A DNA stretch of 64,000 bases from Bacteroidales bacterium. Lineage in GTDB: Bacteria; Bacteroidota; Bacteroidia; Bacteroidales; Marinilabiliaceae. The DNA lies in the NCBI GenBank assembly GCA_024401295.1, contig JAKSLG010000004.1:62001-126000 (forward strand). Direction: 5' to 3'. Positions 1-19,154 of the stretch are shown piece by piece (the stretch's first letter is position 1; each line of letters opens with the position of its first letter). Under the pieces are notes generated by a model that did not search any database, had not been told where the DNA came from, and saw only the letters and a program-made list of their open reading frames with translations. Position numbers and translations under genes: made by a program.

Positions 1-533
1 TTGTGGTCCATCTTGTCGACGTCGCTCTCCATACTGAAAGCCTTGATAGCCTTTACCTCTTCCTTGTCGAGTTTGAAGGCCAATACCACGCCCTCGATGA
101 CCTCCATTCGACCTTGGATGTTGACATCCATGTCTTTTGAAGACGAGACGCGAAGCATTTCATAGATTCGAACGAAGATAACGGCTTTCTGCTTTCTGAC
201 AACTTCTGGATCCTTTGCAATCTTTGTGCCGTCAGGTCTCTCTTCGTCCTTTTCGAGCTCTTTGCTAATCTTGCGACATGCACCGATAATCTTAACAGAT
301 TCTGACGCCTTTACATCACCCGCATTTTCGCTTTTGATAACATGACCGTTTTCGTCAAGTTTCACCTCAGCGTTCTCGTCAAACTTTTTCAGGTATACGT
401 CAACTTCCTGTTCGCCAATCTGAGACTGAAGAAACGTTCTTACGTATTCACGTTCTTCATCACCCACACCGGCGTCTTGCTTGGCAATAAGACCAAACAA
501 TTTCATCAATGCTTCAAGAATAGCTTCGCTCAT
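1..533 (-). CDS. Partial protein, possibly N-terminal TerB-like region of a larger ATP-binding protein
   Basis: The frame is open from an ATG at 533 to the left edge, giving the first 177 residues with no stop. The protein is acidic, mostly helical by composition, and has no signal peptide or membrane segment. It opens with a helical stretch (MSEAILEALMKLFGLIAK) that reminds me of the TerB-like start of large Bacteroidetes proteins carrying FHA and ABC ATPase domains; this is from memory and uncertain. It lies 62 nt after the SiaC-like gene on the same strand and is probably the last visible member of the long signalling operon. A short frame at 53-283 is a shadow of this gene. Confidence 0.6.
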   Translation of the reverse strand, partial: MSEAILEALMKLFGLIAKQDAGVGDEEREYVRTFLQSQIGEQEVDVYLKKFDENAEVKLDENGHVIKSENAGDVKASESVKIIGACRKISKELEKDEERPDGTKIAKDPEVVRKQKAVIFVRIYEMLRVSSSKDMDVNIQGRMEVIEGVVLAFKLDKEEVKAIKAFSMESDVDKMDH

Positions 534-595
534 AATGTATAGTTAAACCCCAAGTAATGCTTTTCCGGCACTACCTGGGATTCGTTAATGATCAA

Positions 596-988
596 TTATT
601 TCTCGTTCCAATCCTCGTCGCATTCCTTATATTCGAATGGCAACTCAACGATGTCTTCATATTCCTGACCTGCCTCCATGATGTCTTCCTCATCTTCGCG
701 ATAACACCATTTGATGTTCACGTCAGTCTTATCCTTGAGTTCTTCGAACTTGAGCAATACGTCGAGCAAAACCTTAGACGAAGCTGTGTTGAAATATTCG
801 AGCTTGAATGTCATCACAGTCTCCGAATTTGGATCCTCACCATATTCGCCAATCCAATTCAAGATTGGACCATAGAATTCTGTTACGTCTTCTGGCAATG
901 AACGACCCTGAATAAGGAAAATGCCATTATCCTTGTCCATAGTTACGCTAGGCGTATCGTCAGTGCCCTTTATGCTAATTACTTCCAT
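596..988 (-). CDS. SiaC-family regulatory phosphoprotein (DUF1987)
   Basis: A 130-residue protein matching the SiaC/DUF1987 family: a TPxV segment near residue 12, the GRSLPED motif at 28-34, and the FYxPILNWIxEY stretch around 38-49. The segment YFNTASSK puts a threonine at residue 68, the same number as the threonine phosphorylated in Pseudomonas SiaC. In that system SiaB phosphorylates SiaC, SiaA removes the phosphate, and SiaC controls a diguanylate cyclase, SiaD. Homologues of SiaB and SiaA lie directly upstream here, but no cyclase is seen. The frame could open further up at 1042, but that would overlap the SiaB-like stop; the ATG at 988 leaves a 14-nt gap and begins right at the conserved domain. 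Confidence 0.85.
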   Translation of the reverse strand: MEVISIKGTDDTPSVTMDKDNGIFLIQGRSLPEDVTEFYGPILNWIGEYGEDPNSETVMTFKLEYFNTASSKVLLDVLLKFEELKDKTDVNIKWCYREDEEDIMEAGQEYEDIVELPFEYKECDEDWNEK

Positions 989-1002
989 TGTTATCTTTGT
1001 TA

Positions 1003-1575
1003 TTAGTTTCTCGAAATTGTTGTGATAAGGATGAAGAAACACAAATCATCTGTCAAATCCTTGAACTGATAGTCGATCTTGTTTCCACTTTTCTTAGCGA
1101 TATCGATAAAACCAAGTCCAGCACCACCCTTTTCAGAGATATGACCTTCCTTGATCTGCTGCTTATAGAGTGCAGAAAGGCCTTCCTTGTCAAGGCTGTT
1201 GATATGCTCAAGGCTCTTCTCAAGACCCTCACGCTTTGAACGCTTTACAACGTTGCCCGTGATGACATTGTACGACTCTTCGCCATGGCTTACCAATACG
1301 ATGCCGCGACGCTCTTCATCATCATCGTCAGTCATTGGATCGGCATGCTTGCTGATATTCTGCAGACATTCAACCATTACGTTGAAAACCTTTCGCTGAA
1401 CCTGATTAGACTCTTCGGCTTTCACCATGTTCTTTTCGGTCATAGCCGTAAATGTTTTTGTGATTTCCTGTGTTACTACGCCTTCGTATACAAGGTTAAT
1501 CTCGTTTGCCTGCATTGTATGATACAACTGGTAGGCAAACTCCAAGAAATCCTGATTCGCTGCTATTCTTGCCAT
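1003..1575 (-). CDS. SiaB-family protein kinase (DUF6272, GHKL fold)
   Basis: A 190-residue cytoplasmic protein with a GHKL ATPase fold. The N box is visible at about 66-78 (VMVECLQNISKHA, with E69 and N73) and a glycine-rich lid at 149-155 (KGGAGLG). In the Sia system this family phosphorylates SiaC, the product of the next gene. No histidine phospho-acceptor domain is present, which fits a Ser/Thr kinase of the anti-sigma type. It sits 43 nt after the SpoIIE phosphatase gene and 14 nt before the SiaC-like gene, giving the order phosphatase, kinase, target. The partner specificity is inferred from gene order. Confidence 0.82.
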   Translation of the reverse strand: MARIAANQDFLEFAYQLYHTMQANEINLVYEGVVTQEITKTFTAMTEKNMVKAEESNQVQRKVFNVMVECLQNISKHADPMTDDDDEERRGIVLVSHGEESYNVITGNVVKRSKREGLEKSLEHINSLDKEGLSALYKQQIKEGHISEKGGAGLGFIDIAKKSGNKIDYQFKDLTDDLCFFILITTISRN

Positions 1576-1618
1576 AGTGCTCTCTATTAAAAAGTGTGTA
1601 AATTTAGCTAAAATATTT

Positions 1619-4294
1619 TTATAATTCTACTCCTATCAACAAAACATCATCAACTTGTCTTGTTCTGATATCAGCTTCTGTCTCCGCAGGACTCTGACGC
1701 ATCCATACATTGATGAAGTCATCATAAACTTCCTTGTAGATGCCGTTCATATCGCTTTCAACAGTTCTGTCGAGTAGTTCCTTAAATCGTTTTGTCTGGT
1801 ATTTTTTCTTTTTCTGACCATCAAGCTGGTCAGGCAATCCATCTGAGAATACGTAAAATCTGTCACCTGGTTGGTATTCAATGACATTATTTTCAAAATC
1901 AGGTTCTGGACGACCTGGCAACGGTATACCACCGATACCCTTGCGAGAACCTTTGTACTCGGTAAATTCGGCACCTCGCATGTAGTAGAGCGGACGGTGA
2001 GCACCGGCAAATTGAAGTTCGTGCTTTTCCGTATCGATACGGCACAAACCAAGGTCCATACCATCTCGGCCGTTGTCTGGACGATCTGGGTCGTCCTGCT
2101 TGAGAGCTCTTCGCACTGCAGCATGCAGTCTGTCGAGAAGCTGAGCAGCCGTGAGATCATGACCTGTTTCCGCAATGTTATTAAGCAACAATGTACCGAT
2201 AAGTGAAAGCAACGCACCCGGAACACCATGGCCTGTACAATCGACTGCCGCGATGTAATATACATTCTCGTGATGATAGAACCATGGGAAGTCGCCGCTG
2301 ACGGTGTTCTTCGGGAAATACATCATGAATGTCTTCGGGAAGTACTTCTGATAGTCCTTCAAATCTGGCAACAATGCACGCTGGATACGCAAAGCATAGT
2401 TGATACTGTCCTGGATACTCTTGTTCTTCTCCTTGATTTCCTCTTCCTGCTTCTTCATCTGAGTGACATCGTGTGCCTGGAAGAGTATTGATTCCAGTTC
2501 CTCACCCGATTCACCAAATTCAGGGATGGCACGAGCCTCAACGATGCGCGATTCACCTTCAAGCTCTATCTCAATCTCAGATTCAGCCTTGACATGAGTT
2601 TTCTTGAGCTGCTTGAGCGAAGTAATGATAAATTCAACGATGCCCATGCTGCTGTCAAGCTCACTCGTCTTCATGTTCATGAGCTCAATTGCCTCTTTCT
2701 GAAGGAACTTAGAAGCTGCAGGATTGACATATACGATCTTACCGTTAGTACTTGTTCGAATAATCATGTCTGGAGAGTTCTCCGACAATGACTGCATACG
2801 GCTCTTCATGCGTTCCTCACGCTCGGCACGTATACGTTCTGTAATATCACGAGTATTAAAGATAAGTCCGCGTATGGCTGGGTCATGAATCAAGTTCTTT
2901 CCTTGGGTCTCGAGGAATATCTTTTCGCCGTTCTTCTTGAGGTACGTATATTGCACGATCTGCTCGCCACCAGGAGTTTCAAGCAGATAGTCGAACATGC
3001 CCGTAACATCTTTCCATCCACGAGGCGTCATCATATCCTCATCCATACCATGAACCGTATCTGTAGGTTCGTAACCAAGGATTCGCTTGACAGATGGGCT
3101 CTCGAAGACGAGTTGCTTGTCTTCATCATATATTGAGATGAATTCCGATGCATTGGTAAGAAGAGCTTGAAGACGTTTCTGAGCATTTTCAACCTCTTGC
3201 ATCTGCTGCTTGAGATCCTTGTTGGTGCGGTCAAGTTCTTCCTGCTTTTCCATCATCTCAAGAGCATTCTGCTGCAACTGTTCCTCATTCTTCTTGAGTG
3301 TCGAGGTCATTTGCTGTGACTCTCGGAGGAGTTGCGCTGTACGCTCGTTAATCTTGAGGTTATATATTGTCGCACCAATCACTTTACCAAGTTCTTCGGC
3401 AAGTGAAATGTAGTGTTGTGGCAATCTCTTGCGCAAGAACGACAATTCAATGACACCCTGCACCTCATCCTCCTGCATCAATGGAATGATGAGAATGGAA
3501 CGAGGCTTTTGTTCACCAAGAATACCCGAAGTTATCGTGAAATAATCTTCTGGAACCTCTGTCCTATATATAATCTGACGCTCATATGCCGCAGCACCAA
3601 TGAGGCCTCTGCCCATCTTTATCGTCGATGTTTCATAGCGTCGACGATCGTATGCATATTGCGTAAGCGTCCTGAGTTCATCTCCTTCGAGGATAAAGAA
3701 TGCACCTTGAACGGCATCATAATATTCAACCATTCCCTGAAGTGTCTCAACGGCCAAATCCTCGACATTGTTATTCATTCGCAGAATATCAGACACTTTT
3801 TCCTTGCCTCGCGTAACCCATGAAAACTGGTTCTCTTTTTCACGTGTCTCCGTTAGGTTCTTTCCGAGCTTTGCAAGAGTCTTGTGGAGGTCTGAATCTT
3901 TTATAACAACAGAATTTTCCACAGATTGTCCATCACCAATCTTATTGGCCATGTCTATTGAACTGACAATCTGGCTATTGAGACTGCTCACCTCATCGCT
4001 CAGTAGCTTTAAACGGATTCTCTTGAAATTCGCGACATAGAGCGAAAGGACAAGCAACGACAGTACTACAACATCAAAAATCCAAACAAAGAAATATCTG
4101 TGCAGATAAACTATATTGCTCATCGAAACATTGAGTCCGACAAGACCCATTATCGAAGTCCAGCCAATAAGCAGAAATGCGAGCATCACGATCAATGCCG
4201 CATACCACTGCAACTCGCTGAATCCTTTCGGAGAAAGGTACTGCAAGTCTATTGCACTGCTACGTTTCTCTGTATTATCTTTTTTCGATTTCAT
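1619..4294 (-). CDS. Membrane GAF-PAS-PAS-SpoIIE (PP2C-type) phosphatase, SiaA-like role
   Basis: An 891-residue sensor phosphatase. Two membrane helices lie at about 31-53 and 66-88, followed by a linker, a GAF domain at about 175-315, a coiled coil at about 316-380, two PAS domains at about 385-495 and 505-620, and a C-terminal SpoIIE/PP2C domain from about 630. Metal-binding acidic residues of the PP2C fold are visible at D668 (SGDF), D685 (AVDCTGHGVPGAL), D818 (FSDG) and D882 (DDVLLIG), so it should be active. The likely substrate is the phosphorylated SiaC-like protein two genes downstream. Its GAF half is clearly related to the protein at 7447-9327, which has no phosphatase. The signals sensed are unknown. 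Confidence 0.88.
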   Translation of the reverse strand: MKSKKDNTEKRSSAIDLQYLSPKGFSELQWYAALIVMLAFLLIGWTSIMGLVGLNVSMSNIVYLHRYFFVWIFDVVVLSLLVLSLYVANFKRIRLKLLSDEVSSLNSQIVSSIDMANKIGDGQSVENSVVIKDSDLHKTLAKLGKNLTETREKENQFSWVTRGKEKVSDILRMNNNVEDLAVETLQGMVEYYDAVQGAFFILEGDELRTLTQYAYDRRRYETSTIKMGRGLIGAAAYERQIIYRTEVPEDYFTITSGILGEQKPRSILIIPLMQEDEVQGVIELSFLRKRLPQHYISLAEELGKVIGATIYNLKINERTAQLLRESQQMTSTLKKNEEQLQQNALEMMEKQEELDRTNKDLKQQMQEVENAQKRLQALLTNASEFISIYDEDKQLVFESPSVKRILGYEPTDTVHGMDEDMMTPRGWKDVTGMFDYLLETPGGEQIVQYTYLKKNGEKIFLETQGKNLIHDPAIRGLIFNTRDITERIRAEREERMKSRMQSLSENSPDMIIRTSTNGKIVYVNPAASKFLQKEAIELMNMKTSELDSSMGIVEFIITSLKQLKKTHVKAESEIEIELEGESRIVEARAIPEFGESGEELESILFQAHDVTQMKKQEEEIKEKNKSIQDSINYALRIQRALLPDLKDYQKYFPKTFMMYFPKNTVSGDFPWFYHHENVYYIAAVDCTGHGVPGALLSLIGTLLLNNIAETGHDLTAAQLLDRLHAAVRRALKQDDPDRPDNGRDGMDLGLCRIDTEKHELQFAGAHRPLYYMRGAEFTEYKGSRKGIGGIPLPGRPEPDFENNVIEYQPGDRFYVFSDGLPDQLDGQKKKKYQTKRFKELLDRTVESDMNGIYKEVYDDFINVWMRQSPAETEADIRTRQVDDVLLIGVEL

Positions 4295-4312
4295 AATATT
4301 TTCACACCAAAT

Positions 4313-5254
4313 TTAGTCGTCAAGCAACAGATTGTCAATATCTTTCCAGATATCTGCTATTGCCAATTTGTCAAAACTTGTGACTTCTGCCAATGCTACA
4401 ACCTCGCCATTATGCTTTATCGGCAAGATGTATACATTCATTGTCTCTGTCTCACCAAGACCCGACATTATTACAAGACTCTCAGTTGGAACATCCGACA
4501 AACACTGCATCTTGCCAGTCCTAATGACTTCACCAAGAATTGCATCATCTGCAGTGACTTCCTTTATCTGCGACTCATCAACAAGCACACCGACTTTTGT
4601 CGCATATTCACCTGCCAGTTCGAAAACTTGCTCGTTGTCACGTTTCATATAAACCAGACCACAGCAAATGTCCGAACACTGAGCCAACGATTTCAATATG
4701 AATTGGCCCTTTGGCTCGTCAGACGATGCCTGAGCACGGTTTTTCTTGACTGTATCTATCAGAATCTGACTATTCTTTCCAAATGACTGCTGCCTGCGCG
4801 TAGCAATATTCATATCATGAATCTCACGCTTCAAACTCGATATTTCCTGATCTTTCTTCTTGCGCAACTGTTCAGACTCTTCCAATTTTTCGCGACACGC
4901 CGAAATGGTTCTATGTGAAGTAAAAATCACTATACATGTAAACACTGACGAAATGACGACAAGCAAAAGGTTGACCATCACGAACGTTGACTGCATCACA
5001 TTGTATGCCATGAACTGCCAGAAGAGGAAGAAGGCCAAAAAACATGACATCGAAACAAAGACCTTTGTTTCAAGCGAAAGAGACATCACCCAATCGTATA
5101 CCGACCTGCAAACATCTGCCAACTTACGGCCGAATGCCAGCATAGCCGAGACAATTGCAGCCCATATCTTAGCCATAAAAGGAACAAGCAGACCTTTTAT
5201 GTATGCCCATTCACCCTTTAACTTATTTAATATTGCCTCTAAAACACTCTTCAT
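4313..5254 (-). CDS. Membrane-anchored coiled-coil GAF-domain protein
   Basis: A 313-residue protein with hydrophobic helices at about 68-84 and 90-112, a charged coiled coil at about 118-150, and a GAF-like domain filling the rest. The segment SGLGETETMNVYILPI followed by GEVVALAEVTSF parallels the GAF domains of the larger proteins at 1619-4294 and 7447-9327. It ends right after the GAF domain and has no enzymatic output, so it may act as a scaffold or modulator. Its start overlaps the stop of the CheB-like gene by 4 nt (ATGA type), suggesting coupled translation. The function is not known. Confidence 0.75.
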   Translation of the reverse strand: MKSVLEAILNKLKGEWAYIKGLLVPFMAKIWAAIVSAMLAFGRKLADVCRSVYDWVMSLSLETKVFVSMSCFLAFFLFWQFMAYNVMQSTFVMVNLLLVVISSVFTCIVIFTSHRTISACREKLEESEQLRKKKDQEISSLKREIHDMNIATRRQQSFGKNSQILIDTVKKNRAQASSDEPKGQFILKSLAQCSDICCGLVYMKRDNEQVFELAGEYATKVGVLVDESQIKEVTADDAILGEVIRTGKMQCLSDVPTESLVIMSGLGETETMNVYILPIKHNGEVVALAEVTSFDKLAIADIWKDIDNLLLDD

Positions 5255-5814
5255 TGCAAATTATTCAAGAAGTCTAAAATTCCTTCAGGACTCAACACCA
5301 TGTCTGGCTTGACAAGCTTTAGCGCGGCTCTTGGCATTGTTGGCACCTCAGCCGTTGCAGGATCCTGAACAATTGTAAATCCCTTTTTGTCGGCAACATC
5401 CTTAAGACCTTTGGCACCATCCTCGTTGGCACCCGTAAGAATTATGCCGACCATCTTTTCTCTATATGCAATAGCAGCCGATGACAACGTATAGTCGATC
5501 GCCGGACGACACTGAAGACTCATCTCTTCTGTAGAAAGCGATATTGTTCCGTCAAACTCAATGAACATATGATAATTTGCCGGCGCAAGGTATATCTTAC
5601 CCGCCTCAATGCGCTCCTTATCCATCGGCTCGACAACCTTCATGCTCGACTTCATCGCCAAGTTCTCTGCCAAACCCGAGCGAATATGCTTAAGTCTATG
5701 CATACATATAATAATAGGAAGCCCAAAATCCGGTCTGAGCTTCGAAAGCATCTTCAGCACAAGGGCAAAACTGCCAGCCGAACCACCGATAACCACTGCC
5801 TTGTAATTGCTCAT
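5251..5814 (-). CDS. Stand-alone CheB-type methylesterase domain protein
   Basis: A 187-residue protein that is only the CheB methylesterase domain, without a receiver domain. The catalytic triad is visible: S12 in GGSAGS, H39 in CMHRLKH and D132 in GANEDGAKG. Conserved APANYH (77-82) and QDPATAEVP segments support the family. Without a receiver its activity would not be controlled by CheA phosphorylation, unlike the second CheB at 9365-10516. It lies 10 nt after a degenerate CheR-like gene and overlaps the GAF-protein gene. Members of this group can act on chemoreceptors or on other carboxyl-methylated targets; the target here is unknown. Confidence 0.88.
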   Translation of the reverse strand: MSNYKAVVIGGSAGSFALVLKMLSKLRPDFGLPIIICMHRLKHIRSGLAENLAMKSSMKVVEPMDKERIEAGKIYLAPANYHMFIEFDGTISLSTEEMSLQCRPAIDYTLSSAAIAYREKMVGIILTGANEDGAKGLKDVADKKGFTIVQDPATAEVPTMPRAALKLVKPDMVLSPEGILDFLNNLQ

Positions 5815-5824
5815 GTCAGCCTCC

Positions 5825-6607
5825 TTACTTTAGATATATGCTTTCATCTGGCTCAACTGCCTTCAAATCGACAGCAGCAATCAAAGGTTCTTTGATTCCA
5901 AGCGCCAACATACCGCCAGGATTCAAGGAATCAGCCAAGTATGTCACAACTTTCTCATGGAGAGAATAGCTAAAATCCAGCAAGGCATTTCTGAATATAA
6001 CAAGATCATAAGTATCCTTTGAATTTGTTATAAACCAGCCTTTTCTGAACTCAACGCCATCGAGCAAAACCGATTTTGGCTTTGTTCTGCCATCTTCCAT
6101 AATCTCAAAATAATCTTCATAAGAACAATTTGACTCCAGTCGCTCGAAATTCGAACGGTTCACCTCATCGTTCTTTGCCGATATCACAAGAGATTTTATC
6201 TCGTCCAACGTTCTTTTTGAAGAGACGTTGCCAACTATTTTCACATTTTCAATACCCATCATGCGCGTAAGCACAACGAAACTGAAAATCTCATAACCAT
6301 TTGTCAAGTTAGGGAACCAGACAGACAATGATGTCTTTCCAGTTAGACGCTTACGTAACGCACGCCAAAAAGCAGGATCACGAAACATCTCCGTTGCCGG
6401 AACAACCATGTTAAAAGTTATTTCGTCAACCTTGTCCTCATCTTCAAGGGCTTTGTATAAATCCTGAATGCTATGCATATGCATTCTGTCCATGACCAAT
6501 GCCAAACGACGACGGAAAAACGAAATGCCGAATCCTGTATATTCAACACCTATTTTTTCTGTCATCTTTGCAGAAATTTCTCGTATGTCACTGATTGTCA
6601 AGAACAT
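5825..6607 (-). CDS. CheR-like protein, probably catalytically inactive
   Basis: A 260-residue protein with the CheR layout: an N-terminal helical domain, the TEMFRDPAFWRAL segment at 72-84, and a Rossmann-like half ending in FRNALLDF and LNPGGMLALG. The SAM-binding motif, normally like SAACSSGEEPY, reads VWFPNLTNGYEIFS at 96-109, so the small residues and acidic contacts are missing. The GTD/GSD element that binds the ribose reads GNV. I infer a pseudo-methyltransferase acting as a binding or regulatory protein. It follows the second CheR-like gene by 10 nt and precedes the stand-alone CheB by 10 nt. Confidence 0.75.
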   Translation of the reverse strand: MFLTISDIREISAKMTEKIGVEYTGFGISFFRRRLALVMDRMHMHSIQDLYKALEDEDKVDEITFNMVVPATEMFRDPAFWRALRKRLTGKTSLSVWFPNLTNGYEIFSFVVLTRMMGIENVKIVGNVSSKRTLDEIKSLVISAKNDEVNRSNFERLESNCSYEDYFEIMEDGRTKPKSVLLDGVEFRKGWFITNSKDTYDLVIFRNALLDFSYSLHEKVVTYLADSLNPGGMLALGIKEPLIAAVDLKAVEPDESIYLK

Positions 6608-6617: not shown

Positions 6618-7433
6618 TCACATTGATGGTTTCTTTGTATAGTATTGCCCCATTCTAGAAAAACGCGTTTCCATCTGCGACGTCAACGCTTCCTGTTTTC
6701 CCAAAACAAGAGCAGCATTGTCATACATCTTAGAATGTATCATAGATATGATCTGATTCTGCAATTTGTCATTGAAATAAATCATTACATTGCGAATGAA
6801 AACCATATCTACCCTATATGGGAACGGAGCCTTGTCAGTCACCAGATTCTGAACCATAAACTTAGGCCTTTCGAGCAAAAATGGTTTAGCACGCATGGTA
6901 TCGGCCTTTTCATCAATGTCGAAATAATCCTCAAATTTGGCATCAAAACCGCAACCCTTCATGACTGCATCAAAATTGTCGCGGAAAAACATGTTGAACC
7001 TGTATGCATATTCACCATTCCGAGCAATATTGAGCACACGAGGATTTATATCCGTGCCAATTGATCTGCATCGGTCAAGCAGACCCATCTGATGCATCAT
7101 TATAAGATTCGAGTAAGTCTCAAGACCTACAGAACATCCTATATGCCAAAAAGTTATGGTTCCACTCTTCGGCAATTTCTGATAGTGCGTCTTATATAGC
7201 GAAATCCACAACTGCGGATCACGGAAAAGCTCAGTCGTGTTTACCGTTATATCGTCAACAATCTTGTTTTTGAATCCCTCATCAACAGTAACTTTATCAA
7301 GAATCTGCTCAAACGACATCGACGTATCTTCAACAATGCGCTGAAGACGACGCGAAATCGAACTATCGCAATAATCACAGAAATCATATTGCGTACGATT
7401 CTTAAATTCTTTCAGAAACTGCTTGAAATCCAT
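6618..7433 (-). CDS. Divergent CheR-type methyltransferase
   Basis: A 271-residue CheR-family protein. It has the NTTELFRDPQLW segment (65-76), a SAM-binding motif at 96-108 that is recognisable but altered (WHIGCSVGLETYS, where the family reads close to GCSTGEEPYS), the GTDIN element at 126-130, and FIRNVMIYF, so SAM binding is plausible. It differs clearly from the canonical CheR at 11967-12827. The frame can be read from 7460, but that overlaps the upstream stop; ATG 7433 leaves a 13-nt gap and starts at the family's first helix. It may methylate the same receptor at other sites, or another protein. Confidence 0.8.
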   Translation of the reverse strand: MDFKQFLKEFKNRTQYDFCDYCDSSISRRLQRIVEDTSMSFEQILDKVTVDEGFKNKIVDDITVNTTELFRDPQLWISLYKTHYQKLPKSGTITFWHIGCSVGLETYSNLIMMHQMGLLDRCRSIGTDINPRVLNIARNGEYAYRFNMFFRDNFDAVMKGCGFDAKFEDYFDIDEKADTMRAKPFLLERPKFMVQNLVTDKAPFPYRVDMVFIRNVMIYFNDKLQNQIISMIHSKMYDNAALVLGKQEALTSQMETRFSRMGQYYTKKPSM

Positions 7434-10558: not shown

Positions 10559-11038
10559 TCAGATTTCACGCTTCTCCAAGAATTTATGTCGTACCTCACC
10601 AGTATCGGTAAGATATAGAATTTTTCTTCCTCGCTTGCCTCCCAGACTCTGTGCAACGACAGGAATCTTGTAGCTGTCAAGCATTGATTTGGCAATCTGG
10701 ATATTGCGCTCACCAATCTGAGTAGCAGACTTGCCTCCACCAACATCGAGCAACTCACCACCACCAAACAATTTGGCTTCGAGATCTTCTATACGGCTTC
10801 CCATAACACGCATCTTCTCTATCAGCTTGTCAATGGCTATATTGCCATACTTCGGCGATGCCAAATCATTACCGTTCCATGTCGGAAGCATATAATGATT
10901 TATGCCACCAAAATGAAGACGTTTATCCCACAAGCATACTGCCACACACGAACCCAATACTGTCTTGACTACATATGGCTCCTTGCTGGCAAAGAACGAC
11001 GAAGGATACAGAAAATGCTGCGAATAGTCCACCGTCAC
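10559..11038 (-). CDS. cheD: CheD, chemoreceptor glutamine deamidase
   Basis: A 159-residue CheD-family protein. The catalytic cysteine C31 lies in VLGSCVAVCL and the histidine H48 in GGINHYMLP; the KYGNIAID and AKLFGGGE segments are also typical. CheD deamidates glutamines in receptor signalling helices and often works with CheC phosphatases, but no cheC is seen in this window. The gene sits between the histidine-kinase-like gene (6 nt upstream) and cheB (42 nt downstream). Confidence 0.93.
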   Translation of the reverse strand: MTVDYSQHFLYPSSFFASKEPYVVKTVLGSCVAVCLWDKRLHFGGINHYMLPTWNGNDLASPKYGNIAIDKLIEKMRVMGSRIEDLEAKLFGGGELLDVGGGKSATQIGERNIQIAKSMLDSYKIPVVAQSLGGKRGRKILYLTDTGEVRHKFLEKREI

Positions 11039-11966: not shown

Positions 11967-12827
11967 TTATATTCTTTTAAACATTGTGGGCTTTATATTT
12001 TTCAGCGGCAAATCCATGTTTGCAATTGATTCCGAATGACCGATCATCAGATAGCCACCTGGCGACAAATGCCTGCACAACTTGCCTACGACTTTTTCCT
12101 GCGTTTCATGGTCGAAATAGATCAACACATTGCGACAGAAAATGACATCGTATTTTTCTGTTATATCGTAAACCTTATCCATAAGGTTAAGGTATTTCAA
12201 AGAAATATTTTGCTGAAGTTGCTTTGTGACCTTCACAGTCGGGTTCACGCGGTCCTTGCTTCGCAGGAAATATTTCTTTTTCAGGTACAGTGGAATGACA
12301 TCAACCGATTTCTCAGGATACACGCCTCTGACCGCTTTGTCGAGCACATTATTCGAAATATCACTTCCCAAAATGGAAAACGAAAATTCCGGATGCTGTT
12401 CCTTGAACTCGTTAAGCACGATGCTTATCGTATATGGTTCCTCACCACTGGAACATGCTGCACTCCACACTTTTATGTTTCTTCGTCCTTCTGCAAGAAA
12501 CTCCGGCAAGACTTCATGCGACAAAAAGTCGAAGTGTGCCGATTCTCTGAAGAAGTCCGTCTTGTTCGTTGTCACAACGCTCAAGAAATTATATATCTCG
12601 TTTCGTTGTCCCTCTTCGCTGAAGAAGTACTTTTTATATTCAGCATATGACGACATCTTGAGTTCACGAATACGCTTGAGCAGGCGGCCCTGAAGCATAA
12701 CTCTCTTGATGTCTGGCATTTTTATGCCGAATTCGCTGTAGATATAGTCGCTGAAAGCTTTGAAATCACTTTGCGATAACTCAGCCTTGAAACAATCAAG
12801 ATCTGATACTTTTTCTATCTCAGCCAT
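11967..12827 (-). CDS. cheR: CheR, chemoreceptor methyltransferase
   Basis: A 286-residue CheR with all expected features: helical N-terminal domain, TTNKTDFFRE at about 86-95, the SAM-binding motif VWSAACSSGEEPYT at 120-133, GSDIS for the ribose contact, FCRNVLIYF, and the LSPGGYLMIGHSES segment. It should use SAM to methylate glutamates on the chemoreceptor encoded seven genes upstream in the same transcript. It is 10 nt after a cheW gene and 13 nt before the histidine-kinase-like gene. Of the three CheR-type genes here this is the only fully canonical one. Confidence 0.94.
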   Translation of the reverse strand: MAEIEKVSDLDCFKAELSQSDFKAFSDYIYSEFGIKMPDIKRVMLQGRLLKRIRELKMSSYAEYKKYFFSEEGQRNEIYNFLSVVTTNKTDFFRESAHFDFLSHEVLPEFLAEGRRNIKVWSAACSSGEEPYTISIVLNEFKEQHPEFSFSILGSDISNNVLDKAVRGVYPEKSVDVIPLYLKKKYFLRSKDRVNPTVKVTKQLQQNISLKYLNLMDKVYDITEKYDVIFCRNVLIYFDHETQEKVVGKLCRHLSPGGYLMIGHSESIANMDLPLKNIKPTMFKRI

Positions 12828-12837
12828 TGCCTTTAAC

Positions 12838-13305
12838 TTACTTGCCCATTATCTGCAGAAGTGATATCACTTCCGTGTCGTTAAACACTTTATCAGCATC
12901 GATAAACATGACAAATTCGTCATTCATACTTGCCGCAAAAGAGACATATCCAGGCTTATAGTTTGTTTCTATAAACTGGCGCGACTCCTCGCTGACTTCA
13001 ACAACATCACTCACCTGGTCAACCATGAGAGCAATGTCAAATGCCTTGTCTGCACCATTGATTGACATCACAATGCAGCAAGTCTGATCGCCTACCTTTA
13101 TCGGATCAAGTCCAAACTTCAATCCGGCATCAATAAGCGGAACAATACCTCCACGATGGTCAACAAGACCCTTCATGAAAGGCAAAAGTGACGACTGTGA
13201 CTTAGGTTCCTCATATTCAACAATTTCGACCACATGCTCTACATGGATGCCAAAAGTGTTTTCTCCCACCTTGAAAGTCAAATATGTGTTCTTTATCTCG
13301 TCCAT
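12838..13305 (-). CDS. cheW: CheW-like coupling protein (second copy)
   Basis: A 155-residue single CheW domain (TYLTFKVGENTFGIHVEHV at the start, LVDHRGGIVPLIDAGLKFG in the middle). Such proteins link CheA to receptors. The frame extends 2 codons further to a GTG at 13311, but ATG 13305 follows a strong GGAGG sequence by about 8 nt and leaves 2 nt after the preceding stop, so I prefer it; this ribosome site is unusual for the window. It lies directly downstream of a second, distinct cheW. Confidence 0.9.
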   Translation of the reverse strand: MDEIKNTYLTFKVGENTFGIHVEHVVEIVEYEEPKSQSSLLPFMKGLVDHRGGIVPLIDAGLKFGLDPIKVGDQTCCIVMSINGADKAFDIALMVDQVSDVVEVSEESRQFIETNYKPGYVSFAASMNDEFVMFIDADKVFNDTEVISLLQIMGK

Positions 13306-13307
13306 TA

Positions 13308-13760
13308 TCACTCCTCCACAACTTTTGCCAATTCGTCAAGACTGACCATATAGATGAATTTATCGCCAATGTGCAATGTGGCACTCAACGCCTTCTGCAA
13401 CAAACGGCTGACCTGAATTACCACACCAGAAGTATATTGGTCCTCGCTATAGTCAAACACTTCATCAACTTCGTCAACCTTTACACCAAGATAACCTTCG
13501 TTTGTTCCATCGACAGACACAACAATAATCGAAGCTTCAGGTAGATTTTCCTCAGTTGGCAAACCCAACATCTTGCGAAAATCAACAACAGGAATCATAT
13601 TACCATGGTTGTTGATAACACCAAGCACAAAATCTTTTGACAGCGGCACGTGTGTCGGATCCGTCATTTCAAGAATATGGCGTATCTTAAACGTCTCGAA
13701 ACAAAAATATTCGCCTCCCACCTTGAATGAGGTGACTGATGTCATTTCCTTCTCTTCCAT
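13308..13760 (-). CDS. cheW: CheW-like coupling protein (first copy)
   Basis: A 150-residue CheW domain protein (FKVGGEYFCFETFKIRHI near the start, GVINNHGNMIPVVDFRKML in the middle). It starts 2 nt after the cheA stop and ends 2 nt before the start of the other cheW. Two CheW proteins beside one CheA suggest different positions in the array, such as linking to CheA and forming CheW-only rings, but this is inference. The two copies differ strongly in sequence, so it is not a recent duplication. Confidence 0.9.
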   Translation of the reverse strand: MEEKEMTSVTSFKVGGEYFCFETFKIRHILEMTDPTHVPLSKDFVLGVINNHGNMIPVVDFRKMLGLPTEENLPEASIIVVSVDGTNEGYLGVKVDEVDEVFDYSEDQYTSGVVIQVSRLLQKALSATLHIGDKFIYMVSLDELAKVVEE

Positions 13761-13762
13761 CG

Positions 13763-15913
13763 CTACGCCTCCTTCTCCTTTGTGTCTTTGCGATATCGCA
13801 ACTGATTATAGTAATTGATCAGACGTGTCGTATCAACTATGAGCGACAACGAACCATCACCCATGACTGATGCACCTGAAATCATATCTATCCTTCTCAT
13901 AAAACGGCCGAGCGGCTTCACAACTATCTGATATTCACCGATAATCTGATCAACCACAATACCTACGCTCTTTTCGCCAGTATGAACCATGATGATTTTT
14001 GCCGTAGCAAAATCCGATTCCTTACTGTAGAACATAGAATTAAGTTGAATATATGGCACCTGCTGACCATTATATACAAACACATTGCCAACGCCACTCT
14101 GGCTAAATTCTACCTCTTTAGCAGAGATGACACGGTCAATATTTGAAAGTGGGAATATAAATTGCTCACCATTCACTTTTGTCAACAGACCATCGATAAT
14201 CGACAACGTCAACGGCAAGTCAAGCGTGAATGTTGTTCCCTTATCTATTTCGGAATCAATAGAAACCTCACCACGTATTTCGGCTATTTTGCTCTTCACA
14301 ACGTCCATTCCGACACCTCGTCCCGAAACGTCACTGACCTTTTCTGCAGTAGAGAATCCACTGGCAAAAATAAGATTGAGCGTCTCCTTCTTTGTCAGAT
14401 TAGTACCTGGATCGACAAGACCTTTTTCGACAGCCTTATTGAATATCTTGCTTGGATCCATGCCCTTTCCGTCATCAGAAAGCTGAATGATAACAGAGGA
14501 ACCGGAATAGAATGCCTTGAGAAGAATCGTTCCCTTAGGGTCCTTGCCCTTGGCAATACGTTCTTCTGGCATTTCAATGCCATGGTCGCCAGAATTTCGA
14601 ATCATGTGCATCAATGGGTCAGTCAAATGCTCAATGATATTCTTATCGAGCTCAATTTCACCACCCTCAACAACAAATTCAAGCTGTTTGTGCAGATTAT
14701 TCGAAAGGTCACGTACAAGACGCTGGAAACGAACAAGCTCACCACCAAGTGGAATCAAACTCAGCGAGAATGCATTTTCACGGAGCGTTCTTGTTGTCTT
14801 TTCCATCTGCTCGGCAATTGCCTGAAGAGCAGGAATGCCTTGTTTTTCAGACAGAAGATTGAGCTGCGCCTGCATCGTGACAAGCTCGCTCACTGCATTG
14901 ACAAGCTCATCAATCTTCGACGACGCAACACGCATCGTAGCAATCTTTGCCTCCTGAACCTTTGGAGCCGCATTATTGTTATTAGCAGCTTTCTTGACTT
15001 CTGTCTGATTCGATGAAGAAGAATCAACAGTTGGCTTATTTTCTTCAACAGGAGCTTTAGCTGCCTGCTTAAACTGTTCAAAATCAGCCTCTGTCAGTGG
15101 CTTATTGTTTTCCGACGCACTCTTTACAAGAGCATCGAGAGCCGAATCATTGTTTTTGATATAATCGCCCGCTGGCAAATTGACAATATCAACCTTGCAC
15201 TCATCTTCGATGAAGATGAAATTATCCTTGATATCATTTACAGCATCCTGCTCCGTGTGGAGAAGCACCTGCCAATTCACACGCATGGCAAGCGGCTTGA
15301 ACTCACCGAAAGGCTCAACCTTGTCAGTGAATGCAATCGTCTTCCATTCGCCAAGCGTCGTAAGGTCATCGACTGTGTAGAGCGGATTCGTTCCGTTCTC
15401 CAAAAGCGATTCCATTGGCTCGATGGTCACAAGATAGTTCTTAGGACCGCCAGCTGCAGCCTCAGCCTCACGCTTTGCCTTTTCCTCTGCTTCACGCTCT
15501 GCCTTTCCTTTTGTGAGCGTTGTACCCTCTGGGAAATGCTTTGTTATGCGAGCAATGAATTCGTTGAGCTGAGCAATATCGTCAGGATTAGTCAGCTTGC
15601 CTTCACCGATATCGAGGAGTTTCTTGATATAGTCGAGCGATTCAAAAGACAAATCCACAATCTCCTTTGTCACCTTCAACTTATCGTTGCGGACAAGGTC
15701 GTAGATTGTCTCGAAATTATGAGTAAACCTACTTAGGTCATCAAAGCCGAACATCATGCCACTACCTTTGATGGTATGCATGCTGCGGAAGATGCGCTGA
15801 ATTAGTTCAGGGTCATAGCTATCCATATTGCCCTCAAGCTCAAAGAGATTCTCTTCGAGCTGCTCGACGTTGTCTAGCGCTTCCTCAACGAATTTCTGTT
15901 GAAACTGATCCAT
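13763..15913 (-). CDS. cheA: CheA, chemotaxis histidine kinase
   Basis: A 716-residue CheA. The Hpt domain (1-105) carries H46 in SMHTIKGSG. A low-complexity Lys/Glu/Ala linker (about 140-160) leads to a P2-like domain (about 160-270), then a long Asn/Pro/Ser-rich linker to the P3 dimerisation helices (about 335-395), the P4 ATPase (HMIRNSGDHGIE, DDGKGMD, GRGVGMDVVK) and a CheW-like P5 at about 575-705. All catalytic motifs look intact. It should phosphorylate CheY at 16009-16374 and the CheB receiver. It lies 95 nt after cheY, the largest gap inside the operon; I saw only a weak small hairpin there. Confidence 0.96.
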   Translation of the reverse strand: MDQFQQKFVEEALDNVEQLEENLFELEGNMDSYDPELIQRIFRSMHTIKGSGMMFGFDDLSRFTHNFETIYDLVRNDKLKVTKEIVDLSFESLDYIKKLLDIGEGKLTNPDDIAQLNEFIARITKHFPEGTTLTKGKAEREAEEKAKREAEAAAGGPKNYLVTIEPMESLLENGTNPLYTVDDLTTLGEWKTIAFTDKVEPFGEFKPLAMRVNWQVLLHTEQDAVNDIKDNFIFIEDECKVDIVNLPAGDYIKNNDSALDALVKSASENNKPLTEADFEQFKQAAKAPVEENKPTVDSSSSNQTEVKKAANNNNAAPKVQEAKIATMRVASSKIDELVNAVSELVTMQAQLNLLSEKQGIPALQAIAEQMEKTTRTLRENAFSLSLIPLGGELVRFQRLVRDLSNNLHKQLEFVVEGGEIELDKNIIEHLTDPLMHMIRNSGDHGIEMPEERIAKGKDPKGTILLKAFYSGSSVIIQLSDDGKGMDPSKIFNKAVEKGLVDPGTNLTKKETLNLIFASGFSTAEKVSDVSGRGVGMDVVKSKIAEIRGEVSIDSEIDKGTTFTLDLPLTLSIIDGLLTKVNGEQFIFPLSNIDRVISAKEVEFSQSGVGNVFVYNGQQVPYIQLNSMFYSKESDFATAKIIMVHTGEKSVGIVVDQIIGEYQIVVKPLGRFMRRIDMISGASVMGDGSLSLIVDTTRLINYYNQLRYRKDTKEKEA

Positions 15914-16008
15914 GGCTTTGTTTACTTCATAACTCTACTTTTCCTTTCTCATCACGGAAAGGACATCATCTTGCGATTTAATATCGCCGTACTATATTTA
16001 TATACCTG

Positions 16009-16374
16009 TTAACGCACGACCTTTGCAATCGCACTCAGCAATTTAGCAGGAACGAATGGCTTGATAATCCAGCCAGTTGCACCAGCTTCCTTTGCTTCCA
16101 TCTTCTTCTCAGTCTGAGACTCTGTTGTAAGGAAGAGAATTGGAATATGCTTGTATGCATCGATCTCGCGAACCTTGCGAATAAGGCCCAAACCATCAAG
16201 ATTTGGCATATGAAGGTCAGTAATCACAATGTCAATTGTACGACCATCAAGATACTTGAGTGCATCCATACCGTCAACACCAACCAATACCTCGTAACCT
16301 TCGTTCTGCAAGGTAAAGTTGACTACTTCGCGGATACTCTCAGAGTCATCTACAATAAGGACTGTCTTTGCCAT
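16009..16374 (-). CDS. cheY: CheY-like single-domain response regulator
   Basis: A 121-residue receiver domain with D9, D10, the phospho-acceptor D53 (IVITDLHMPNLDG), a conserved threonine (FLTTES) and the lysine of IIKPF. It has no DNA-binding or enzymatic output, so it should work by protein binding like CheY. No flagellar switch gene, gliding gene or pilus motor gene is in the window, so its target cannot be named. It lies between the STAS-like gene (27 nt upstream) and cheA. Confidence 0.93.
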   Translation of the reverse strand: MAKTVLIVDDSESIREVVNFTLQNEGYEVLVGVDGMDALKYLDGRTIDIVITDLHMPNLDGLGLIRKVREIDAYKHIPILFLTTESQTEKKMEAKEAGATGWIIKPFVPAKLLSAIAKVVR

Positions 16375-16401
16375 ATTTCAATATTTTATTATATTCTGTT
16401 T

Positions 16402-16713
16402 TTAGTAATTCAATTCTTTTTCGAGACCTGTCTTGATCATGAGCTGTTTCAAATCTTCTTTCAATTCAGACTTTACATGAAACTCGCTTCCTTTTGCTTT
16501 CCACTTGTGCTTGACAGAAATAACCATCTGCACAAAAGCAATATCAAGATTTTCCGGATTGTTTATAATAAATGTAACAGGCTGTTCCGGAGTGATAAGT
16601 TCCTGCATCTCTTCATAAATCTTTTCGATGTGATTTATTATGAGATTGCCACTGAAACTCACTTCCATTGTGCCATTCTTGTCGATGGCTGCTATTGTAT
16701 AAGGATTACTCAT
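16402..16713 (-). CDS. STAS-like domain protein lacking the phosphorylatable serine
   Basis: A 103-residue protein with a STAS/anti-sigma antagonist outline: a beta-rich start (MEVSFSGNLIINHIEKIY), a loop NPENLDIAFVQMVISVKHKW and a C-terminal helix ending LMIKTGLEKEL. In SpoIIAA-type proteins the loop holds an Asp-Ser pair and the serine is phosphorylated; here it is D57-I58, so a classical switch is not possible. The frame could open at a TTG at 16731, but ATG 16713 fits better. It sits between the chemoreceptor and cheY. A STAS protein beside a SiaB-type kinase system in one operon is suggestive, but interaction is inference. Confidence 0.65.
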   Translation of the reverse strand: MSNPYTIAAIDKNGTMEVSFSGNLIINHIEKIYEEMQELITPEQPVTFIINNPENLDIAFVQMVISVKHKWKAKGSEFHVKSELKEDLKQLMIKTGLEKELNY

Positions 16714-16745
16714 AGTTTTGCCTGCATACAATTATCATTCAATAA

Positions 16746-18530
16746 TCAGAACTTCTCGTAGTTGTCAATGTCATACTCCTTGGTTGAACCCAGATTGATA
16801 GTAGCACCCTTGTGATGATCATTTGACGGCTGCTCCTGAGCTGGTTCTTCATGATTTTCTACCTTGGCAGTTTTCTTGTTTGACTCGTTCTTTGTGCTTG
16901 ACTTAACAGGGCTCTGGCTCTCTACGTTGCGCTCTGCGCTTTCGTCGAGTTTGAAGAAGCTTACAGCCGCCTTCAAATTAGACGCAAGTTCGCTCAACTG
17001 AACAGAGCTGTTTGTAAGCTCGTCTGCTGCCGATGCATTTTCCTGTGTAATAACATTGAGGTTCTGCATTGCCATGTTAATCTGTTCGGCACCAGTTTTC
17101 TGCTCAATAGAAGCAGCAGAGATTTCCTTAATGAGGACTGTTGTCTTCTCCATTTCAGGAACAAGGTCTTTAGCCTTATCACCAGCCAACTGCGAAACCT
17201 TCATACCACGAGCCACGAGGCTTACAATTTCGTTAGCAGCCTGCTTGCTTCGTTCTGCAAGTTTGCGGACCTCAGCAGCAACAACTGCGAAACCTCGTCC
17301 GTGCTCGCCTGCTCTCACAGCCTCTACGGCAGCATTGAGCGCAAGAATATTTGTCTGGAATGCGATATCGCTGATGATTGTGATCTTCTGTGATATCTGG
17401 CTCATTGCTTCTGCAGCCTCGTTTGAATACTGGCTTGAGAGTGTTACGTTCTCCACTGTTGCTGCCGTAATCTTCTCGGTTGCAATTGCATTCTCCGTAT
17501 TCTGATCGATGTTGGCAACCATCTCTTCGATGGCTGTAGAAACCTCTTCAGCACTAGCAGCCTGTTCAGAAGCACCCTTATTAAGTTTAAGTGAGTTTGA
17601 CTTAAGTCCATCGCCACTGTCAACAAGGTCGTTGGCATTTCTCTCGATGCTCAACACGATGTTACGTACGTTTGTAACCATCTCAGTCAAAGCCTCTGAC
17701 AACTGACCCAACTCGTCCTTGCTGTCAACTTCTACTGAAACTGTAAGGTCACCGTCACCGATAGCCTTTGCAAATGCAACGCCCTTCTTCAATGGAGCGA
17801 CGATTGTCTGATAGAGCATCCATCCAACGAATACTGACATTGCCATCACGATAAGGCTGAACAATATTACGAACATGAGCTGAACAGCTGACCAAAGGCT
17901 GATGCTCGATGCAATTTCCTCACACTTAACATTGCAGATTTCGATAAGTCTGTCCATCAAGACATTGATGTCGGCTGTAATGACGTTCACTTCACCATCG
18001 ACACCAACAAGTTCCTGGCTTCCGAATGTTGCCATGACGTCGTTATAGCTGTCGAAACTTGAAAGGTTTTCCATGATGGTTCTTTCATAGTCGAAAAGTT
18101 CAAGAACTTTTGTATTGACAGTGTCAAGAGTGCAGATGAAAGTAGAGTCCCAACCGCCTGTCTTCTTCTGAACCTCCTCATAGACAGCATAGAACTCTGT
18201 GTCAACAATGGCACGCAATCTGACCTTATATTCAAGATCTGGATTTGGTTCACCATATGCCCAGTTGAATGACAAACGGCTCGACTCAGTGACAAGCATC
18301 TGCATCTGGTTGAGATCTTCTCTCATTGGTATGTACTCTTCTGCCTCAACACTCTGCTGAACTCGCGTATAAACGTGAATTGCAACAGTGAAAACTGCAT
18401 TAAGTAAAATGAAAGCACAAATGATGCCGAAGCCCGTCAGCAATTTTCTTGCTATCGACATGTCGCTTGACATAAACTTGTTGATAAAAGCAAACCCCTT
18501 CATTGCGGGTTTATTTCCGCTATTTGCCAT
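16746..18530 (-). CDS. Methyl-accepting chemotaxis protein with C-terminal pentapeptide
   Basis: A 594-residue chemoreceptor: membrane helix at about 33-53, a helical periplasmic sensor domain of about 150 residues, a second membrane helix at about 208-232, HAMP at about 233-285, and the cytoplasmic signalling hairpin with the conserved tip ([20 protein letters not shown]). After the hairpin comes a flexible charged tail of about 80 residues ending in NYEKF. This fits the tether consensus (any, aromatic, two any, aromatic) by which receptors dock CheR or CheB. It is the only receptor in the window and lies 21 nt after the YfiR-like gene. The ligand is unknown. Confidence 0.95.
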
Positions 18531-18551
18531 CGTATATTGTATTATTAATTT

Positions 18552-19061
18552 TTACAAAACTATCGCTGCAGTCATCGTTTCGAGCTTCGCACCGAATTGT
18601 ATGCCTGCATATGAAGCATTCTTTTTCGACAATTCGAATTTCAACTTTTCGTCGCGAACAACGAAGTTGATCATCGAACCATTATTCGCCGCTCCTTCCT
18701 GCTCGGTGATAATCAGCGTTCCTTTGCCAACAGTAGAAATGATCTTCTCTGAAACGCGGCCGAAACTAACCGAACTTGAGCAGTAGATAACCTGACACTT
18801 CTCAACCTCTTCTGCGCTCTTGAACTCCTTGATGACAACATCCTGGAATCCGAATTTCTTACCCGCAGACTGAGTACGCAACTGGTTTGCCAAATCCTTG
18901 TCGCGAATAACTCCGATAACGAAATCACCCTGCTTAGCCTCGTCTGACCAACCAATATAGCGTATGAAATTAAGCGTAAGCATTGCCTTCGCTTTTGTAA
19001 CCTGAGCCTGAGCTACAACTGGCAGAAGCATTACTGCCATTATGACTAACAACTTTCTCAT
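18552..19061 (-). CDS. YfiR-family periplasmic protein (DUF4154), first gene of the chemosensory operon
   Basis: A 169-residue protein with a signal peptide (cleavage likely after AQA near residue 19) and a YfiR/DUF4154 domain (KAMLTLNFIRYIGWSDE, GDFVIGVI, CQVIYCSSS, GTLIITEQ, INFVVRDEKLKFELS). In Pseudomonas YfiR is a periplasmic repressor of the YfiN diguanylate cyclase. Here the adjacent membrane partner is the chemoreceptor encoded 21 nt downstream, so a periplasmic accessory of that receptor is a plausible role. It follows the best promoter candidate of the operon. Confidence 0.82.
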   Translation of the reverse strand: MRKLLVIMAVMLLPVVAQAQVTKAKAMLTLNFIRYIGWSDEAKQGDFVIGVIRDKDLANQLRTQSAGKKFGFQDVVIKEFKSAEEVEKCQVIYCSSSVSFGRVSEKIISTVGKGTLIITEQEGAANNGSMINFVVRDEKLKFELSKKNASYAGIQFGAKLETMTAAIVL

Positions 19062-19122
19062 ATTCGTAAAGTTTTGTTTTTCAATTCTACAACACGTTTA
19101 TACACGCGTTTTCACCAGAGTT

Positions 19123-19154
19123 CAAAGTTACAGATTTTAACAATAATACGCAAA
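19123..19154 (-). promoter_or_regulatory. Promoter candidate for the chemosensory operon
   Basis: On the minus strand a TTTG (19151-19154) is followed after 20 nt by TAACTTTG (19123-19130), matching the Bacteroidetes TTTG/TAnnTTTG pattern. The predicted start is about 55 nt upstream of the YfiR-like ATG. It overlaps the end of ribF. Downstream gene spacing is tight through to the left edge, so it may drive the whole operon. Confidence 0.6.

Follow-up and report, generated by a model that had tools for sequence, protein, structure and literature searches.

A Marinilabiliaceae gene cluster in which a chemosensory array adjoins a SiaABC-like partner switch and a candidate ABC-transporter output

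Among the closest described systems is the SiaABCD partner switch of Pseudomonas aeruginosa, in which, according to the accessible text of the report, SiaB phosphorylates and SiaA dephosphorylates SiaC at T68 (PMC7647112). In the available sections of a further study, phosphorylation of T68 blocks the binding of SiaC to SiaD, and the authors suggest that SiaC-family (DUF1987) proteins modulate adjacent proteins (PMC8457831). Methylation above a partner switch has also been described: the S-helix of the GAF-containing kinase RsbK, which acts above a PP2C switch, is a substrate of the methyltransferase RsbM, as stated in the accessible part of PMC4574943. The cluster analysed here combines chemosensory (che) genes, sia genes and an ABC transporter, and lies at the left end of a 64,000-nucleotide stretch (the window) from a Bacteroidales bacterium of the Marinilabiliaceae (assembly GCA_024401295.1, contig JAKSLG010000004.1). 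In our labels the window is G000:C34:62001-126000, where G stands for genomes, L for fetched loci and C for contigs; g138 and g148 are genera and f127 is a family. The source genome is 2.3 Mb and 75% complete.

We propose that these genes would form one signalling-to-export pathway built from two joined modules, a reading to which we give an even chance. It starts from gene content, conserved linkage and intact catalytic motifs seen in the sequences, from the lack of GGDEF matches in the family and from carriers in which no Che core was found; from these we infer the binding of SiaC to the transporter, the methylation substrate, the coupling of array to phosphatase and the direction of export. 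The first module, YfiR–MCP–STAS–CheY–CheA–CheW–CheW–CheR1–pseudo-histidine kinase–CheD–CheB, would be a chemosensory array. The second, the partner switch, would comprise a GAF–PAS protein, CheR2, CheR3, CheB2, a membrane GAF protein, a SiaA-like phosphatase, SiaB, SiaC, a TerB–ABC transporter, a lipoprotein and a small exported protein. SiaB would phosphorylate SiaC on a conserved threonine, the GAF/PAS-gated SpoIIE phosphatase would remove the phosphate, and dephosphorylated SiaC would bind the transporter and alter export. CheR2 would add methyl groups to signalling helices in the GAF/SpoIIE proteins and CheB2 would remove them, giving an adaptation loop independent of MCP and CheA, and in Marinilabiliaceae the upstream array would let the CheA/CheY state and the GAF signals converge on the phosphatase.

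An earlier note on this DNA, made from the letters alone, had described a 20-gene operon. The single strand and the tight spacing agree with this, every gene from YfiR to the left edge being on the minus strand with gaps, as called, of −40 to +95 nt, but the cluster extends to about 22 genes: 19 lie complete in the window, the left edge runs through a 20th and two more are found outside. The 40-nt overlap of SiaC and SiaB vanishes if SiaC starts at a Met conserved in the alignment (about 988). The gene identities given in that note were borne out by Pfam and NCBIfam, with Pfam matches over cut-off for MCP, CheA, CheY, two CheW, CheD, CheB, a receiver-less second CheB, three CheR-type proteins, SpoIIE, DUF6272 (SiaB), SiaC and the YfiR/HmsC-like protein; the STAS-like and the small GAF proteins score below the Pfam cut-offs. 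Its promoter candidate at the head of the cluster also stands. TTTG-N17-23-TAnnTTTG is a Bacteroidota promoter motif, and its only full match in positions 1-20200 lies at 19154-19123 (minus strand), upstream of YfiR; the whole window holds 8 matches against 2.2 expected. The cluster may be transcribed as a single transcript. Ahead of YfiR, at a distance of 97 nt, lies a gene of the same strand (19159-20103); of 10 relatives read, 8 have a divergent gene in that place. Terminator-like sites were near chance in number (19 found, 14.9 expected), and a sigma-70 scan (61 matches, 36.5 expected) was judged uninformative for Bacteroidota.

All three parts of a SiaABC switch are present: a SiaB kinase, a SiaC with its threonine and a PP2C/SpoIIE phosphatase. 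The SiaB-family protein kinase (DUF6272; 1003..1575, minus strand, as for all window coordinates below) matches PF19788 (E=3.9e-43) and the NCBIfam model NF038262, 'SiaB family protein kinase', with 174.8 bits against a cut-off of 85, and the SiaB motifs are found in 107-109 of 110 distinct sequences. The SiaC phospho-switch protein (596..988; PF09345, E=1.3e-37) reads YFNTASSK, an instance of N-T-[AS]-S; YFNTxSSK occurs in 106 and the Thr in 107 of 110 distinct sequences, and this Thr aligns to T68 of the P. aeruginosa protein (PDB 6kko). The SiaA-like phosphatase is a membrane GAF–PAS–SpoIIE (PP2C) protein (1619..4294; PF07228) whose PP2C motifs are found in 84-94 of 94 distinct sequences, D[CS]TGHG in all 94. 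The SiaA and SiaC equivalog models score below their cut-offs (156.5 of 700 and 84.2 of 150 bits). Two further sensor-like genes belong to the module, a membrane GAF–PAS–PAS protein (7447..9327; Pfam) and a fast-evolving membrane GAF-like protein (4313..5254; GAF_2 below cut-off), the latter with 20-30% identity in the family genomes read. In Pseudomonas, the genes run SiaA, SiaB, SiaC and then the target gene, and the order here is the same. SiaC-family (DUF1987) proteins are said to be widespread, and SiaB was also matched in 15 plasmid records.

The linkage of the two modules was followed in 71 genomes of the family, in which CheA was found in 69 and SiaB in 70. In 41 genomes, out of 53 with both on one contig, the two genes share a strand and are separated by 13.3-14.7 kb. 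Of the others, 18 have no shared contig or lack one of the genes among their matches, and in 12 the genes are on the same contig but apart; nine of these 12 belong to g138 (14 genomes in all), two to the window's genus and one to g148. None of the 14 g138 genomes was seen joined, although in 5 of them CheA and SiaB are on different contigs, which is not decisive. The count used 72 of 145 SiaB rows, and the other 73 change nothing (four share the CheA contig, far off). The congener G203 is among the 41 by its spacing, yet the SiaB counted there is a copy of 56% identity, next to which no transporter was seen; this copy (L159 1369-4064; G203:C52) stands next to SpoIIE and is followed by an unrelated 609-aa gene rather than by SiaC–transporter.

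The earlier note took the che and sia parts as one unit and named their separation in most relatives as what would refute this. The parts are indeed apart outside the family and in g138, and in many Bacteroidales CheR2–CheR3–CheB2–GAF–SpoIIE go with SiaB–SiaC–transporter without CheA, but in the window's own family the joint cluster is conserved in the majority just described. The union therefore looks lineage-specific: for the family it appears right and resembles a fusion, and the wider unit looks like a CheR/CheB–SpoIIE–Sia–transporter module.

Co-occurrence was assessed in an order sample of 149 evenly chosen genomes, with matches to CheA in 41, SiaB in 64, MCPsignal in 50 and the transporter N-terminus in 68 (44 below 1e-75). 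The cut of E<1e-75 for a 'close' transporter was set after seeing a gap between 3.9e-76 and 8.9e-65. A close transporter is found in 33 of 41 genomes with CheA versus 11 of 108 without (Fisher p=2.6e-16, kinship uncorrected). Among the 31 of 44 close carriers read (all 11 without CheA and 20 of the 33 with it), none has CheA in the stretch.

Several observations weigh against a single pathway. In the split genomes read (G167, G155, G189, G207), the break falls between SpoIIE and SiaB, with SpoIIE ending the che part and SiaB–SiaC–transporter–lipoprotein–exported protein forming the other; G160 was seen from the Sia side only, its fetched che stretch stopping at CheR2. The short element TAnnTTTG lies upstream of MCP and SpoIIE in the window and is absent before the other 16 genes. 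It precedes SiaB in 37 of 111 upstream regions, versus a background of 8.7%, and in 7 of 12 loci where SiaB stands without SpoIIE. Because of this excess some relatives probably have an internal promoter ahead of SiaB; no TAnnTTTG lies upstream of the SiaB in the window. In addition, the close transporter is missing in 8 of the 41 CheA-bearing genomes of the order sample, SiaB homologs reach 18 per genome, so that most would serve other targets, and the own genome gives three matches over cut-off to T9SS proteins of the PorP/SprF type, so that gliding is a possible output of the array. Separation of SiaB–SiaC–transporter from SpoIIE is likewise seen in loci titled Carboxylicivirga (L165, L166, L167, L180, L187).

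One alternative is an operon shared without cross-talk, in which the Che array would control gliding or T9SS-based motility and the Sia module the transporter, the two being co-located since both matter in surface life. We rate it as rather doubtful. The separation of the modules in g138 and outside the family and the T9SS matches speak for it, whereas the fixed CheA–SiaB spacing in the family, the co-occurrence of CheA with the close transporter (again uncorrected for kinship) and the retention of SpoIIE with che at the breaks argue against it. So do two differing arrangements. In L227 (1-13354), CheA–CheW–CheR–pseudo-histidine kinase–CheD–CheB runs straight into GAF–SpoIIE–SiaB–SiaC–transporter without CheR2 or CheB2, an alternative joining, and in G054 both parts lie about 20 kb apart on opposite strands. 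Within the two-module pathway, the simplest route from array to switch would be CheY or CheA acting on SpoIIE, since SpoIIE remains in the che part of the broken clusters.

The earlier note had left the output of the SiaC switch as unknown and had advised looking for an effector to the left of the window. The genes there supply a candidate output, namely the transporter and two exported proteins after SiaC. The transporter is a 1135-aa protein with a TerB-like N-terminus, an ABC ATPase and an ABC-2 membrane part (1..533 in the window, whole gene G000:C34:59126-62533). PF00005 and PF01061 are over cut-off, in the ATPase-then-ABC-2 order of ABCG/White-type transporters, and Walker A is found in 104, the signature in 109 and Walker B in 100 of 109 distinct sequences. 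The TerB model scores below cut-off in the window copy (E=0.025), and six of seven members match it at E<=1, the best at 1.7e-11. An FHA domain, suspected by eye, was rejected, since Pfam gave no FHA match at E<=1 in seven members and a sequence comparison with the PDB no relative at E<=10. The lipoprotein that follows (L004:16208-17119, 303 aa) and the small exported protein after it (L004:15755-16183, 142 aa) have signal sequences by eye; at least 90% of 28 aligned lipoproteins share the lipobox Cys, and neither protein has a convincing Pfam or PDB relative (PPC in 2 of 27, best E=0.0059).

Conservation of this arrangement was read in a scan of named genomes, whose 80 loci are the best 80 of more than 548 and so the closest relatives by design, not a random sample; 79 were analysed, and L210 was left out of the order counts, since the caller had picked an antisense open reading frame (ORF). 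Named loci and G genomes overlap partly, some proteins being 100% identical. The loci nearest to the window's transporter are labelled Marinilabiliaceae, Carboxylicivirga, Natronoflexus, Alkaliflexus, Geofilum, Labilibacter and unclassified Bacteroidales, and the closest relative among the loci listed comes from a reindeer metagenome-assembled genome labelled Marinilabiliaceae (83% identity in the best segment). Of the 76 loci with enough flanking sequence, 74 have SiaC as the gene immediately upstream of the transporter; SiaB is second in 72 of 74 and SpoIIE third in 59 of 69. Outside Marinilabiliaceae, most of these best 80 loci read CheR–(GAF–PAS)–CheR–CheB2–GAF–SpoIIE–SiaB–SiaC–transporter–lipoprotein–exported protein, with no adjoining CheA. 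Where at least 9 kb upstream was available (65 loci), the run includes CheB2 in 49, CheB2 without a receiver-type CheB in 36, and CheA in one (L227), the CheA of Marinilabiliaceae lying beyond the 10-kb flank.

In the order sample, SiaB is immediately upstream of at least 40 of the 44 close transporters. A second transporter subfamily has a convergent SiaB–SiaC in at least 16 of the next 35 rows, and sequence reading showed this arrangement in eight loci, of which six belong to those 16. These counts cover 79 of the 150 transporter rows listed, compared with 79 SiaB rows; the other 71 transporter rows were checked separately. The loci in which the second subfamily faces convergent SiaB–SiaC are L302-L309 and L325, and in L302, L303, L305, L306 and L325 a lipoprotein gene and a gene for about 140 aa lie on the transporter's other side. 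In a sample of the phylum, the transporter was matched in 9 of 296 genomes; four outside the order match strongly, three of them with CheR–CheB2–GAF–SpoIIE–SiaB–SiaC–transporter and the fourth (L325) convergent.

A cyclase output, as in SiaABCD, finds no place in this family. A GGDEF search gave no match in any of the 71 genomes of the family, its control being positive in 8 of 14, extending the earlier remark that the unit itself holds no GGDEF gene. A diguanylate cyclase like SiaD is thus not the SiaC target, and a c-di-GMP output is rejected on this count. Because of the SiaC adjacency, the lack of GGDEF in the family and the convergent second subfamily, SiaC would gate the close transporter, a role that is not extended to every TerB–ABC transporter.

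It could also be supposed that SiaC acts on an unlinked target, such as a sigma factor or other enzyme, and that the transporter is a neighbour only. Partner switches classically involve sigma factors, as the accessible text of PMC7647112 indicates. The own genome carries tandem small SiaC genes elsewhere (L006 8307-8687 and 8677-9039; G000:C36), SiaB-less and flanked, by eye, by outer-membrane receptor-like genes and a YjgP/YjgQ-type permease, and the 18-kb stretch read around them has no TerB–ABC gene. Distant transporter paralogs mostly lack a nearby SiaB among the matches listed: SiaB lies within 6 kb in at least one of 71 more distant rows, and at least 17 of 106 paralog rows overall have it nearby. 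Counting further against a general Sia–transporter link, the own genome's second TerB–ABC transporter (L321 8097-11174; G000:C23) has no Sia neighbour, and neither do the TerB–ABC genes of L326 and L327. We nevertheless find an unlinked target improbable, given the SiaC–transporter adjacency, its recurrence in a differently arranged second subfamily, the missing GGDEF in the family and the lack of any sigma-factor match in Pfam among the cluster proteins.

The input side of the second module was examined through its methylation enzymes, for which the CheR S-adenosylmethionine (SAM)-site and CheB triad positions are our own presumed assignments and the residue counts are of sequences that were not deduplicated. 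The three CheR-type proteins listed in the earlier note are all there, but they are not equivalent. CheR1 (11967..12827; PF01739, E=2.7e-60) is canonical, with intact motifs, and goes with the array. CheR2 (6618..7433; PF01739, E=3.9e-29) is the methyltransferase of the module, with its SAM-site motifs largely kept (the Asp in 78% of 32 sequences); its counterpart outside the family, CheR2a, has the Asp and RN..IYF in 100% of 61 sequences. CheR3 (5825..6607; PF01739, E=3.9e-10) is degenerate and has lost the SAM-site Asp; at this position another residue is commoner both among 26 CheR3 and among 49 CheR2b, the counterparts of CheR3 outside the family. Degenerate methyltransferases are thus retained beside an intact one and are perhaps regulatory subunits. 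CheB2 (5251..5814) is a stand-alone methylesterase of 187 aa that matches PF01339 only, with no N-terminal receiver, and keeps the Ser in 98%, the His in 100% and the Asp in 100% of 83 sequences.

These enzymes occur where no chemotaxis core was found. No CheW domain was detected in 11 transporter carriers (eight Bacteroidales and three near-complete genomes of the same class and another order; control positive in 7 of 14), and all 11 have CheR, 10 of them with CheR and CheB2 within the Sia operon. The eight Bacteroidales have no CheA, MCP or CheW matches, and in seven of them a CheR-type gene and CheB2 are in the operon, the exception being G066. Both genes are also in the operon of three of three f127 genomes among the 11, where the absence of a CheA-coupled array is judged from the CheW domain. 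In G402 the operon's CheR is the sole CheR match in the genome. In CheW-less genomes there is no CheA-coupled array for the pair to act on, which makes the GAF/SpoIIE proteins encoded beside it the leading methylation candidates, and the CheR/CheB-type enzymes probably act on a substrate that is not a chemoreceptor, since the switch part occurs without a detected chemotaxis core. That CheR2 and CheB2 are extra adaptation enzymes of the MCP array, unrelated to the phosphatase, has little probability, for although an array is present in the window and CheR/CheB families act on MCPs in textbook cases, the pair stands in the Sia operon of these Che-core-less Bacteroidales and CheW-less f127 genomes.

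A particular methylation site in SpoIIE was also considered. Between loci with and without CheB2, 27 SpoIIE columns differ, 15 of them in PAS1 and the linker (416-498), including Glu493. All 73 loci with CheB2 have Glu at this position, as do 3 of 14 clean loci without it (L227, L281, L298); the truncated L211 was left out of the latter count, as were L181 and G207, judged to be ORF-caller misses. The 11 losses of Glu493 are contiguous in the leaf order of the tree, and by parsimony the CheB2 state changes six times. With its losses in one stretch of the tree, Glu493 has no independent support as the methylation site and was set aside, a point that also counts against the proposed loop.

The array module has MCP, CheA, CheW and CheY in one cluster, as expected for a Che system. 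Its first gene, here and in relatives, encodes the YfiR/HmsC-like protein (18552..19061; PF13689, E=4e-28), followed by the MCP with HAMP and MCPsignal domains (16746..18530; PF00015, E=3.5e-31), the STAS-like protein (16402..16713; PF13466 below cut-off), CheY (16009..16374; PF00072; 88-91% identity in the family genomes read), CheA with Hpt, dimerisation, HATPase and CheW domains by Pfam (13763..15913) and two CheW (13308..13760 and 12838..13311; both PF01584). CheD (10559..11038; PF03975) and CheB with its receiver domain (9365..10516; PF00072 and PF01339) close the module. In the STAS-like protein, the position that we take to be the phospho-acceptor site is Ala in the window versus Thr in nine of nine family relatives aligned, and a role as the switch phosphoprotein is thus unsupported in the window. 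A gene missing from the earlier list (11045..11953) encodes a histidine-kinase-like protein, by Pfam and alignment a pseudo-histidine kinase with Asn in place of the phospho-accepting His of the H-box and a retained ATP-binding part. Its motif NE[IV]xNPF is found in 12 of 12 length-filtered orthologs, and the ATP site is kept in 11 of the 12; the His is retained in a longer hybrid kinase of G090, judged non-orthologous. This conserved pseudo-histidine kinase of the che cluster is also found in G054, from another family.

Taken further, and more tentatively than the two-module pathway itself, a CheR/CheB pair of Bacteroidia without a chemotaxis core may reversibly methylate a GAF–PAS–SpoIIE phosphatase, which would be an adapting non-MCP sensor driving a SiaB/SiaC-gated ABC exporter; Marinilabiliaceae would add a full array, so that chemosensing would control export through contacts between proteins, with neither c-di-GMP nor a motor as intermediary. 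The transporter would then be a second, testable class of adjacent SiaC target, in a family in which no GGDEF was found, and would offer a candidate output for chemosensory arrays in Bacteroidales. CheW-less genomes with CheR/CheB make action on a non-chemoreceptor directly testable, with candidate substrates in the same operon. In the open literature searched, DUF6272, 'SiaB family' and 'SiaC family' are not named, DUF1987 being named in one paper (PMC8457831). Among the matches listed, judged by titles and abstract openings and with subscription papers mostly outside, none has as its subject a transporter together with Sia proteins, an operon of this kind with CheR/CheB, or chemosensing in Marinilabiliaceae. 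We therefore rate this variant of the Sia partner switch, with its output and input, as absent from those matches.

Compared with known systems, the switch is like SiaABCD of P. aeruginosa in having a membrane PP2C phosphatase, a SiaB kinase and a SiaC with the phospho-Thr motif, as far as the accessible texts describe it (PMC7647112, PMC8457831). The two differ in that SiaC is followed here by an ABC transporter and there by the cyclase SiaD, and in the GAF input, the CheR/CheB genes and the Che array added here, in a family without detected GGDEF. The Che1–CrsR–CrsA system of Shewanella oneidensis is likewise a chemosensory locus bearing partner-switch genes, but its switch controls the availability of RpoS, and the available part of that report mentions neither SiaB/SiaC nor a transporter (PMC9855816). 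The nearest precedent for the proposed methylation is RsbK–RsbM–RsbY of Bacillus cereus, where a methyltransferase acts on the signalling helix of a GAF sensor above a PP2C switch. In the accessible text, RsbM is described as an orphan without a cognate methylesterase and the output is sigma-B, whereas here a CheB-type enzyme is paired with the methyltransferase and one GAF protein itself bears the phosphatase (PMC4574943). Finally, Rv1747/PknF, as partly available, offers a putative exporter in an operon with a modulating Ser/Thr kinase; FHA domains and PknF are found there, and a TerB-like N-terminus and SiaB/SiaC in the cluster described here.

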